Virus record (IMG/VR): IMGVR_UViG_3300025647_000026
Span: 1-64,000 of that record
Direction: 5' to 3' (one strand)
Length of the DNA: 64,000 nt
Source of the DNA: a virus
Part shown: positions 43,039 through 50,688 of the stretch, piece after piece
Numbering within the stretch: position 1 is the first letter of the stretch
Layout of the letters: each line of letters begins with the position of its first letter
Made by a program: the position numbers and the translations under genes
The notes under the pieces: generated by a model
Databases searched by the model: none
What the model saw: the letters and a program-made list of their open reading frames with translations, nothing else
Told to the model about the DNA's origin: nothing

Positions 43039-43491
43039 TTAATAGGCTCGTACTTCACTTTCACAGAAGTTTTTGAATGGTTTCGGGAGGGTAGGTATGT
43101 TTTCCATAGCCCATTTAAGGTAGTTGTGAGGCACTTCTCCAATCGCATCTCCTTTGTATTTCCCAAAAGGTATTTTATATGCTCGGTTTATTTTTATTGG
43201 TGGTTGCTTTTTAGGTTTTGCTTTTGGCTTTGATACCTTTTTTCTTTCTAAAGTATAGTGTGCGCTTCTTTTTGGATTGCTAGTTACTATTGTTAGTGCA
43301 TGATTTATTCTATCGTCTTCTTTTTTAAATACAAGTATTTCAGTTGTGATTAAATTTCTTAGTTTTAAGCTGTTTCTATAAATCTCAACTATTCCATTTA
43401 CTCGGTAGGCGTGTTCGTATTCAACTATTTCGCAGCCTTCTTGTTCCATTATAATTATAATAGTTGGCTTTTCGTAATCTTTGTAGTCCAT
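43039..43491 (-). CDS. DUF3820 protein
   Basis: A 150-aa protein with a C-terminal DUF3820 domain: 'YKIPFGKYKGDAIGEVPHNYLKWAMENI' (about residues 108-135). DUF3820 is found alone or fused to exonucleases and helicases of phages and plasmids and is thought to bind nucleic acid. The N-terminus is unrelated. The start at ATG 43491 is chosen because the repaired upstream gene would end at 43527. Confidence 0.65.
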   Translation of the reverse strand: MDYKDYEKPTIIIIMEQEGCEIVEYEHAYRVNGIVEIYRNSLKLRNLITTEILVFKKEDDRINHALTIVTSNPKRSAHYTLERKKVSKPKAKPKKQPPIKINRAYKIPFGKYKGDAIGEVPHNYLKWAMENIPTLPKPFKNFCESEVRAY

Positions 43492-43526
43492 TGGTTTTAT
43501 TGGGTTTGTAAATTTTTGAGTACTAT

Positions 43527-44421
43527 TTATAACATAAATATAACAGCTTCTTTCTTTAGAGGTTTGAGGTTGACTGAGTATCTGAAACACTCTTTATTAT
43601 AGAGGTTGCCAAATTTATCGTAGAAATGCTTGTTTGGGTTGAACTTTTTATATTTAACCATTCTTACTGCATCTCTCTCTTTAGAAAGTACTCCGTTTGA
43701 TTCTAGTAATTTAAGTCTTTTTTCTAACAGTATTAGTTGATTTAACTCCTAATAGTTCTGCTATTCTTGTTTGACTGATACTTTGTGATTTTGCTATTGC
43801 TTTTCCCTCATGCGATTGTTTGTAAGCAGCTACTGCTATGCTTACTAATTTGATTCCACCTATAATATTATCAATTTCTTGTTCTTTATTGATTATACTA
43901 TCGTCTGCGTAGATTCTCTCTCTTATGTTTTTAAATTCTCCGTTTTGGGCTAGTTCGCTAACTAATTCTTTAGCTTTATTCTTTACTGAATCTTTTTTAA
44001 ATATTTTCTTTGCTGATTTTTTAGCTTTATATTTTTGTCTTTTTAATTGTGTTAATAACTTTATTTTAGCCATTTCTAGCTTTAATTGAGTAGGGTCTAT
44101 TTTAACTTTGGTTATTTGTTGGTAATGAGCAGCAGTATGTTTTCTATCTTTATTTATTATTGGGTTACGCCAAATAGATACTAATACTAATTTATTTTTT
44201 TCTAATCTTACAAAACCGTTTTCTTGTAGTAAATTAACGTGTTTGCGTAGGCTGCTTTCGCTTATCTTTAAGTCTATGGCTATTTGCTTGTACTTAGTAG
44301 AAATATGCTTATAATGACCACTTTTATTGTGTAGCTTTAACTTGAAATATGTTTTCATACTTGGGCTGTAATTTAATTCAGCTATAAGTTGTACTGGTAT
44401 TTTAAGTTTAGTTTTTTGCAT
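43527..44421 (-). pseudogene. Winged-helix protein with poly-A frameshift
   Basis: The frame opened at ATG 44421 encodes a winged helix near the N-terminus ('YKQIAIDLKISESSLRKHVNLLQENGFVRLEKN'), a basic linker, and a second HTH ('ISQTRIAELLGV') and stops at 43711. Removing one A from the 6-A run (T run at 43718-43723) lets the reading continue: 'VRKRLKLLESNGVL' and on to a stop at 43527, completing the second HTH. So the gene is either broken by a homopolymer insertion or this is an assembly error. Two DNA-binding domains suggest a replication initiator or regulator. Confidence 0.6.
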
Positions 44422-44531
44422 AAAAAAAAGCCCCAAGAAATAGAGTCTCGGAGCTTTTTTTTTAAATATAAATATACAAAAAAAATTCAATTAAAATTAA
44501 GACTCTATTCCCTAATTGTTCTACAAATATA
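44422..44531 (-). promoter_or_regulatory. Transcription attenuator leader
   Basis: A promoter (TATATTTG box 44524-44531; TTTG 19 nt further upstream) starts a roughly 95-nt leader before ATG 44421. Just before ATG lies a strong terminator: AAGCTCCGAGA pairs with TCTTGGGGCTT, then a T8 run (44422-44456). Upstream bases 44500-44509 (AATAGAGTCT on the - strand) are perfectly complementary to 44439-44448, which form part of that terminator's 5' arm and loop. The two structures are mutually exclusive, the hallmark of an attenuator/antiterminator. Confidence 0.65.
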
Positions 44532-44571
44532 AAACAATTATTTTAGAATCCAAATTTATTTTTAAAATAAA

Positions 44572-44661
44572 TCCCTCGAAGTAAATCGAGGGATTATATT
44601 ACAAAACAAATTATCAGGAATAGATTATGAGAACTACTCCTTCAACACAAGAGCAAATATA
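44572..44661 (-). ncRNA. Candidate small RNA with own promoter and terminator
   Basis: A CTAATTAAA-type promoter (-33 nonamer 44681-44689, box CAAATATA 44654-44661) points into about 75 nt with no ATG, ending in a perfect hairpin (TCCCTCGA / TCGAGGGA, about 44573-44596) followed by TTTATTTT on the - strand. This is the layout of a free-standing small RNA. No coding frame is present. Confidence 0.5.
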
Positions 44662-44694: not shown

Positions 44695-45069
44695 TTAATT
44701 CGCCATATTTTTAATCATTGATTCAAACATAGCTTCTTTTTCAGTATCTGTCATTAGTATTTTCTCTTTGTAATCAAGTTTTACGGCTCTTGCTTCCTCG
44801 CATAACTTCCAAAGCTCTTTCTCGTTCCTACATATCTCTTTGCCGTATTTATCGAAAGCTTTCATGTCCTTATCTCCATTTTTCTCGTACAAATACCAAC
44901 CTATCCATTCGTTAGCATCTTCTCCATAGTAATGCTCTAGTAAAAGTGCTATTATAGCATTGTACTCCTCTGTAATGGTAGTTATGTTAATATATTTGTA
45001 TAATACGTCAATAGTATCGTCTGTTTTCTTAATTTTGCTAAGAAGTTGTTTAAATATTGGTAGTTCCAT
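44695..45069 (-). CDS. Conserved phage hypothetical protein
   Basis: A 124-aa helical protein with 'DANEWIGWYLYEK' and 'DKYGKEICRNEKELWKLCEEA', features of a hypothetical family recurring in phages (an Asn-Glu-Trp-Ile-x-Trp core). Last gene of the leftward small-gene operon; overlaps its upstream neighbour by 20 nt. Confidence 0.6.
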   Translation of the reverse strand: MELPIFKQLLSKIKKTDDTIDVLYKYINITTITEEYNAIIALLLEHYYGEDANEWIGWYLYEKNGDKDMKAFDKYGKEICRNEKELWKLCEEARAVKLDYKEKILMTDTEKEAMFESMIKNMAN

Positions 45070-50148: not shown

Positions 50149-50688
50149 TTAAAAATTATTTATTGATTCAATTTTTGCAGTATCTAAAAAACCACCCATC
50201 AATTGTCTTTGTTGTAAATCGGTATTTAGTTTCATGTTTATTTGGTTTAAAAAACTTTCCATTTCTGGCATTGGAGGCAAATAACCACGACTACAATTAG
50301 CATATAATTGGTTTATAAAACCTCGCTTTAAATCGGATTCATACTGGTGTCCAGTTCTCATGTAATAGTAAGCAGCTCTAACAGTTTGACTTCTATTAAC
50401 TCCCGCATGGCAATGCAAATAAACCCTGCTATTACTTTTTTCAGCTGCAAATAAAACTACCATCGCTCCATAAATTGAATTTAAGCCAATATCTCTTTTA
50501 CATTCGTTCATTGGAAACCAAAATGACTTTATATTATTGGCAATTAGTAATAAATGATGACTTGTGTAGTATTCGTCAGAAACGTTAATTACATAGTCAA
50601 ATTCATTTACATCAAACCTTCTATTATCTTCGTGAGGGAATCCTCCAACTATTAAATTTTTTTCAAACCATTCTTTAAATTTTGACAT
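50149..50688 (-). CDS. Dual-specificity/tyrosine phosphatase-like protein
   Basis: 179 aa with the protein-tyrosine-phosphatase signature HCHAGVNRS (residues 92-100; catalytic Cys93, Arg99) preceded by a beta strand (RVYL) and followed by 'QTVRAAYYYMR', as in dual-specificity phosphatases. Upstream 'DYVINVSDEYY' fits the DSP fold. A phage protein phosphatase could alter host or phage phosphoproteins or RNA ends; the substrate is unknown. Confidence 0.75.
   Translation of the reverse strand: MSKFKEWFEKNLIVGGFPHEDNRRFDVNEFDYVINVSDEYYTSHHLLLIANNIKSFWFPMNECKRDIGLNSIYGAMVVLFAAEKSNSRVYLHCHAGVNRSQTVRAAYYYMRTGHQYESDLKRGFINQLYANCSRGYLPPMPEMESFLNQINMKLNTDLQQRQLMGGFLDTAKIESINNF

Follow-up and report, generated by a model that had tools for sequence, protein, structure and literature searches.

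In a 64-kb stretch of viral DNA (positions 1 to 64,000 of IMG/VR record IMGVR_UViG_3300025647_000026; hereafter the window), a winged-helix gene is preceded by a short leader in which an upstream segment, termed X, is exactly complementary to X′, the apical loop region of the intrinsic terminator that ends the leader. Leaders of this design recur in related phages, where the complementarity exceeds chance, is centred on the terminator loop, is retained through compensatory changes in X and X′, and stands before genes. The element is probably a cis-acting transcription attenuator, of one sign or the other, belonging to a family of phage leader RNAs, and its recurrence in many related phages, ahead of genes for replication and for DNA cutting, suggests a gene-switch family that has not been described before.

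The leader of the window

By sequence and fold, a promoter, a leader and an intrinsic terminator precede the coding start of the winged-helix gene (Table 1). The first-pass annotation had placed a promoter box at 44524 at the head of the leader and had described a strong terminator with a T8 run leading directly into the start codon at 44421; both descriptions hold, and the box proves to belong to a Bacteroidetes-type promoter. The pattern TTTG-N19-TAnnTTTG has four matches on both strands of the 64 kb, against 0.87 expected, and the window promoter is one of these. A generic promoter scan (TTGACA/TATAAT model) did not give this promoter among the matches listed, and the leader terminator was likewise not reported by the generic scan of the window. 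In the Flavobacterium johnsoniae register, in which a G occupies position −5 (PMC6847099, in excerpt), transcription would start at approximately 44519, and the terminated RNA would thus be approximately 97 nt long. The fold of 44411–44531 is more stable than those of 200 out of 200 shuffled sequences (z = −4.44). X is located inside the 19-nt loop of H1, a weak hairpin (−2.8 kcal/mol) for which the program favours another register; H1 stems comparable to that of the window covary in relatives. Counterparts of the separate terminator at the 3′ side of the preceding gene (44695–45069) occur in the syntenic contigs L012 and L029; this terminator probably serves to insulate the leader.

Table 1. 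Features of the leader region and adjoining gene in the window (positions are those of the 64-kb stretch)
Feature	Position	Strand	Details
Bacteroidetes-type promoter	44524..44554	minus	TTTG-N19-TATATTTG: −33 TTTG 44554–44551, 19-nt spacer, −7 TATATTTG 44531–44524; consensus and register from PMC6847099 (excerpt)
Weak hairpin H1	44488..44518	minus	CAATTA 44518–44513 / TAATTG 44493–44488; drawn from sequence
X, upstream pairing strand	44500..44509	minus	AATAGAGTCT; exact-copy search
X′	44439..44448	minus	AGACTCTATT; entire 7-nt apical loop and 3 nt of the 5′ arm
Intrinsic terminator	44422..44461	minus	A-tract; 9-bp core stem 44454–44446 / 44438–44430; apical loop CTCTATT 44445–44439; T8 44429–44422, abutting ATG 44421–44419
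Separate terminator	44570..44595	minus	3′ of the preceding gene; counterparts in L012 and L029
Winged-helix gene	43711..44421	minus	236 aa; starts directly after T8

X and X′ are the sole two exact copies within the 64-kb window, and an exact complement of at least 10 nt arose in 1 of 20,000 dinucleotide shuffles of the leader (5e-5). Across the whole 77.9-kb record (77,878 bases), a complement of at least 8 nt was found at 1 of 28 terminators, namely that of the window element. The perfect 10-base complement noticed in the first-pass annotation is therefore exact and rare, and its description as matching the arm and loop of the terminator is to be amended: the match is loop-centred, with 7 of its 10 positions in the apical loop and 3 in the 5′ arm.

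For the full leader the minimum fold is the terminator (−28.3 kcal/mol, versus −21.4 when X:X′ is forced), whereas for the leader up to 44430, without the T8, the minimum is a long-range X:X′ helix with further pairs (−21.0 kcal/mol, a value as low being reached by 1 of 200 shuffles); leaving out the 3′ arm likewise gives X:X′ as the minimum (−15.4 kcal/mol), and the pairing can be extended past 10 bp. X:X′ together with the terminator stem constitutes a pseudoknot, a class of structure that these folding programs do not treat. Since X:X′ is the minimum before the T8 and the terminator is the minimum after it, the two states are predicted to compete in the window, where X:X′ could form first; an alternative structure competing with the terminator, as an attenuator calls for, is thus predicted for this leader. 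The earlier claim of two mutually exclusive structures is accordingly upheld as competition in the window leader and not as a rule for the family, because the conserved pairing is loop-centred (a kissing geometry) and both structures may coexist in many relatives.

The lack of an ATG in 44519–44430 argues against a leader-peptide attenuator, and the TTG at 44490 shares the frame of the gene, with no stop codon between them. In F. johnsoniae, translation tends to be lower where RNA structure surrounds the initiation codon (PMC6847099, in excerpt), so the conserved hairpin lying 8 nt ahead of the ATG might reduce translation as well.

Recurrence of the element and its place before genes

Complementarity was counted in two samples of terminators, divided according to whether the box TAnnTTTG occurs 45–130 nt upstream. 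The first sample (1.32 Mb scanned, near-duplicates removed) comprised relatives of HNH genes, fetched irrespective of complementarity; it also includes the window and L012, both of which gave rise to the idea, and L083–L089, which were fetched by leader pattern, lie on contigs mostly fetched before and passed through the near-duplicate filter. Among its 309 non-redundant terminators, 56 have the box and 253 do not. Complements of at least 7 nt were found for 19 of the boxed terminators (2.4 expected) and of at least 8 nt for 14 (0.7 expected), while the unboxed terminators gave 14 (13.3 expected) and 5 (4.1 expected), respectively, with 10 nt reached in 4 (0.3 expected). The second sample was drawn by the replication ATPase, using query A6 built from three element-bearing loci, and covers 80 of 132 matching loci, terminators resembling those of the first sample being omitted from the count. 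Here, the 21 new boxed terminators include 18 with complements of at least 6 nt (4.1 expected), 12 with at least 8 nt (0.4 expected) and 5 with 10 nt (0.0 expected); the 83 unboxed ones show a slight excess (at least 8 nt in 5, versus 1.6 expected). The complement scan was confined to the inner part of each hairpin plus the final 4 nt of its outer 5′ arm; it misses the CCGCCAAG class (L045, L048, L060 and the elemo phages), and the element counts are therefore incomplete.

Members of the family are recognized by a loop complement upstream of the terminator, mostly 10–16 nt (or approximately 26 nt) after TAnnTTTG; in the window the distance is 14 nt and 7 of 7 loop positions are matched. A pattern match in L090 (Prevotellaceae) was discarded, as neither a terminator nor a loop complement lies behind it and it looks like coding sequence. 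Among 395 genomes from the class of G001, two HNH genes were found, neither with a paired leader. By such criteria, no element was seen in eight other cultured flavophages, of which phi46:3, Nekkels_1, phiST, phi3ST:2, phiSM and phi13:1 were scanned in part and 6H and P12024S entire; in the cultured Cellulophaga phages phi10:1 and phi19:1, replication genes are preceded by a less convincing candidate that pairs over 7 bp and has a TATATTTA box.

Because the first scan favoured the inner hairpin, the search was repeated over whole hairpins, arms included. Complements of at least 7 nt were obtained for 36 of 88 boxed terminators, 34 of them centred on the apical loop, and for 47 of 403 unboxed terminators, only 14 of them loop-centred; this difference indicates that the pairing is loop-to-upstream and not arm-to-upstream. 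In the boxed set, 233 of the 300 complement positions lie in the loop, although the loop accounts for 279 of 1,213 nt. The corresponding figure from the narrower scan, 254 of 307, is partly a product of its construction, which required half of the complement to lie in the loop.

The sequences of X and X′ change together. Alignment A7 contains 12 of 15 replication-type leaders (L196, L198 and L207 were too different to align), and its X columns read AGGTCGAAGC, AGGTTGTAGC, AAGTCGCATC, ATGTCAGAGC, AGGTAGTAGC and others, matched by the X′ columns save at some end positions. Both sides are changed in 5 of the 10 X:X′ pairs (19 cells). Over the 17 pairs of H1 and X:X′, 93.1% of cells pair, versus 75.7% in shuffled and at most 38.1% in slid versions, and 31 cells are doubly changed (19 of them in X:X′), versus 8.0 in shuffles. 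The covariation score of 0.512, versus 0.180, was reached by 0 of 500 shuffles, a control that does not remove relatedness, and slid versions score only 0.10. Without a given structure, RNAalifold returns the X:X′ helix alone, and 5 of its 8 pairs have changed on both sides. Smaller sets of L034-type (4 rows) and L031-type (3 rows) leaders agree with the replication-type set; the HNH set A2, of which the six members are too alike to tell, has a covariation value reached by 85 of 500 shuffles, and A4 (4 rows) was aligned and not counted. Compensatory change is thus seen in replication-type, L034-type and L031-type relatives, and the window gene itself has no diverged homologue.

Placement was scanned in 2.04 Mb by promoter, complement and loop criteria, with the identical contigs L001, L003, L026 and L027 left out, yielding 38 non-redundant elements, two of which (L042 at 969, minus strand, and L145) look like chance matches. 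For 25 of the 38 elements, an ORF of at least 60 aa begins no more than 40 nt downstream, compared with 7 of 47 among the other boxed terminators (p 2e-6) and 64 of 382 among the unboxed ones (p 4e-10 by Fisher's test); the loci were fetched around genes, and the control terminators include operon ends. This excess leaves little room for another promoter. Of the 13 elements without such a start, five lack one even in the first 200 nt: those of L029, L037, L125, L148 and L154. The proteins encoded behind the elements include HNH endonucleases, a DUF6291 protein (L032) and a Phg_2220_C protein (L084). A BT4734-like/PriCT_1 primase gene follows the element of L147, where only 3 nt separate the box from X, so that this element falls outside the placement criterion; in L161 the gene starts alike but its frame is broken. 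An ATPase is encoded further downstream (AAA_25 below its cut-off).

Sufficient upstream sequence was available for 86 HNH ORFs. The box precedes 17 of them, 13 of which also have a paired leader (10 detected by the scan and 3 by the longest complement); for the remaining 73 of the 86, a paired leader was not found within 160 nt upstream. L144 carries two HNH genes (162 and 2770), each with a paired leader of its own (GTGAGACA and GTGAGAAG), and the subgroup of L125, L148, L154 and L137 has a conserved CCTATTGATTTAGGT after X and an HNH ORF approximately 270–350 nt from the terminator start. Two HNH ORFs without a box (L058 2850 and L159 2907) have 8–9-nt upstream complements, which may be due to chance or to another leader type.

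The leader can travel with its gene. In the Flavobacterium phages elemoA_10-9C, elemoB_14-3B and elemoA_7-5A, a box, a leader with the pair CCGCCAAG/CTTGGCGG, a terminator and an HNH gene lie between two genes that adjoin each other in the sister phage elemoA_2-5C, from which the leader and the HNH gene are both absent. The left flank of elemoA_10-9C equals that of elemoA_2-5C for 283 nt up to the insertion, and on the other side the two phages differ in the opening bases of the following gene. A second HNH gene, in elemoA_2-5C, is preceded by an ordinary terminator without a paired leader, and this terminator also occurs in elemoA_10-9C without the gene.

At the syntenic place in L012, the upstream terminator and promoter are followed by a leader of unrelated sequence, in which GTGAGAG complements the terminator loop CTCTCAC, and by an HNH endonuclease gene in place of the winged-helix gene. 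At the same place in L029 there is a GCGTGCGGC/GCCGCACGC pair with no ORF behind it. The downstream gene therefore varies while the design of the element persists. When L012 12525–13339 is compared with window 43083–44517, the HNH gene and its leader occupy the place of the winged-helix gene and of all but the end of the gene after it, this end being retained (76% identity); the arrangement suggests that a cassette was exchanged for local genes.

Mechanism, alternatives and known systems

Our first, though tentative, choice is a cis attenuator in which the loop pairing opposes or delays the terminator. A housekeeping-type promoter would produce a leader of approximately 100 nt, an early hairpin would display the 6–10-nt X in its loop, and the last hairpin would serve as the intrinsic terminator, with X′, the exact complement of X, in its apical loop region. 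X would pair with X′ once X′ exits the polymerase and before the 3′ arm of the terminator exists, and this would hinder or delay closure of the terminator, such that some polymerases read into the gene, at a level set by whatever frees or blocks X. The two elements on the single contig L084, of which the loops are unrelated, fit pairing in cis.

Next in order comes the opposite sign of the same attenuator, which we regard as rather unlikely and yet as a serious rival, because in many members the match is confined to the loop: the loop pairing may stabilise the terminator, producing a tight stop that keeps the gene off until transcription passes it from another promoter or with the help of an antitermination factor. 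The loop-centred position of 34 of the 36 boxed complements, with 233 of 300 positions in the loop, would allow the stem to form around the pairing; in the window, however, X:X′ extends into the stem and competes with it, and a plain strong stop would need neither a dedicated promoter nor a kept pairing. A similarly low probability, ranked after it, is given to a stand-alone phage small RNA with its own terminator, in which the loop pairing would be part of a tertiary fold and the downstream gene incidental. The syntenic element of L029 without a following ORF would suit such an RNA, as would L125, L148, L154 and L137 with their distant HNH ORFs, but against it stand the marked over-representation of ORF starts in the 40 nt after the elements, relative to controls that include ordinary operon ends, and the insertion of element and HNH gene as one unit in the elemo phages.

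Control in trans, on the lines of P4 immunity or the copy control of plasmids, would have the terminated leader pair with nascent leaders of its own phage, with loop diversity providing specificity. The great variation of X among phages, with complementarity kept, would be expected of it, but X is already matched in cis by X′ in each RNA, and from X to 200 nt past the terminator an antisense TAnnTTTG is absent in 20 of 26 elements and present in 6; this reading is thus improbable, and a pT181-like antisense countertranscript was rejected on the same count. A chance complement beside an ordinary terminator, which is what the 253 unboxed terminators show for complements of 7 or 8 nt, is very improbable, being refuted for the family by the excess in two samples, covariation, RNAalifold and loop centring; for the window alone, 1 of 20,000 shuffles reached the match.

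The element can be set beside several known systems. The phage P4 CI and P1 c4 immunity RNAs and the pT181-type attenuators are short phage or plasmid RNAs that exert control in the leaders of replication genes, and they act in trans or via antisense RNA; in contrast, the match described here lies inside one leader. The c4 antisense RNA is tabulated in PMC2864571 (in excerpt). The nearest printed idea found is the candidate fhsA motif (WRC-63-1), found in Leptotrichia and environmental DNA before the formate-tetrahydrofolate ligase gene and with a speculated ligand, in which the terminator loop is predicted to be able to pair with a preceding hairpin, preventing termination (PMC11109978, in excerpt); the comparison covers the published description. 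The Rfam trpB motif (RF04312) is also a two-hairpin leader with a terminator, and L198 aligns over all 107 model positions with 36.2 bits, which is below the curated 59, and L198 was therefore not accepted as a member; the motif differs in occurring in Firmicutes and Fusobacteria and, in the excerpted description, in having its antiterminator in the right shoulder of P1 and no loop–loop match (PMC11109978). In the env8 cobalamin riboswitch, a kissing loop (L5-L13) likewise docks an expression-platform hairpin, but according to excerpts of PMC10907184 it controls translation and is ligand-dependent, whereas here the hairpin is a terminator and no conserved aptamer was seen.

At curated thresholds, Rfam gave no matches in the whole window; with looser limits, applied to the window, 18 loci and further element searches, the matches listed were all below threshold, the best on the tested elements being trpB with 36.2 bits. 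L048 3246–3278 has a DUF805b match just below threshold (33.9 versus 35.6 bits). No description of this loop-pairing phage leader family was found among the literature matches listed, in a search mainly of openly accessible papers. There is perhaps an even chance that the elements constitute a widespread, undescribed class of phage cis-RNAs, in which a freely varying, always self-matching loop–loop helix controls an intrinsic terminator, and that one switch serves replication operons and is carried by mobile HNH genes, the cassettes of which plug into phage timing. Leader switches are usually found by conserved letters; here, the letters vary and it is the pairing that is kept, a possible reason for the absence of the element from the RNA family library. 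If the element works as proposed, Bacteroidetes phages possess a simple terminator control, one RNA design is common to replication genes and homing-type endonucleases, and natural, interchangeable terminator switches would be available for this phylum.

The winged-helix gene and its surroundings

A single homologue of the winged-helix gene was found, in the identical contig L001 (6,708 nt), and searches of phage proteins and genome contigs gave no match to a diverged homologue. Phage DNA and protein searches with the window leader region and the L043 leader also gave no match, while the best phage matches of a nearby phosphoesterase gene are in Cellulophaga phages (48–50% identity). The suggestion that the winged-helix protein regulates its own leader found no support, as the elements of relatives precede unrelated genes and the syntenic element of L029 has no ORF.

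Type III toxin–antitoxin systems consist of tandem RNA repeats before a ToxN-like endoribonuclease gene. The element does not fit this description: the Pfam matches of the downstream protein are mostly weak and of helix-turn-helix type, none being ToxN-like, and no leader repeats were visible by eye.

The frame of the winged-helix gene is broken at a run of seven A (approximately 43723–43717; region 43525–43725, minus strand), after which the +1 frame runs on for approximately 63 aa, and a second helix-turn-helix match, HTH_11 (E 2.4e-5, just under its cut-off), spans the frame junction. The break is identical in L001, and slippage, frameshift, mutation and assembly error are all possible; a −1 programmed frameshift at the A run was rejected, as the open frame downstream is +1. 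Elsewhere in the window, the phage ORF at 50149–50688 encodes a dual-specificity phosphatase domain (DSPc, 3.6e-11).
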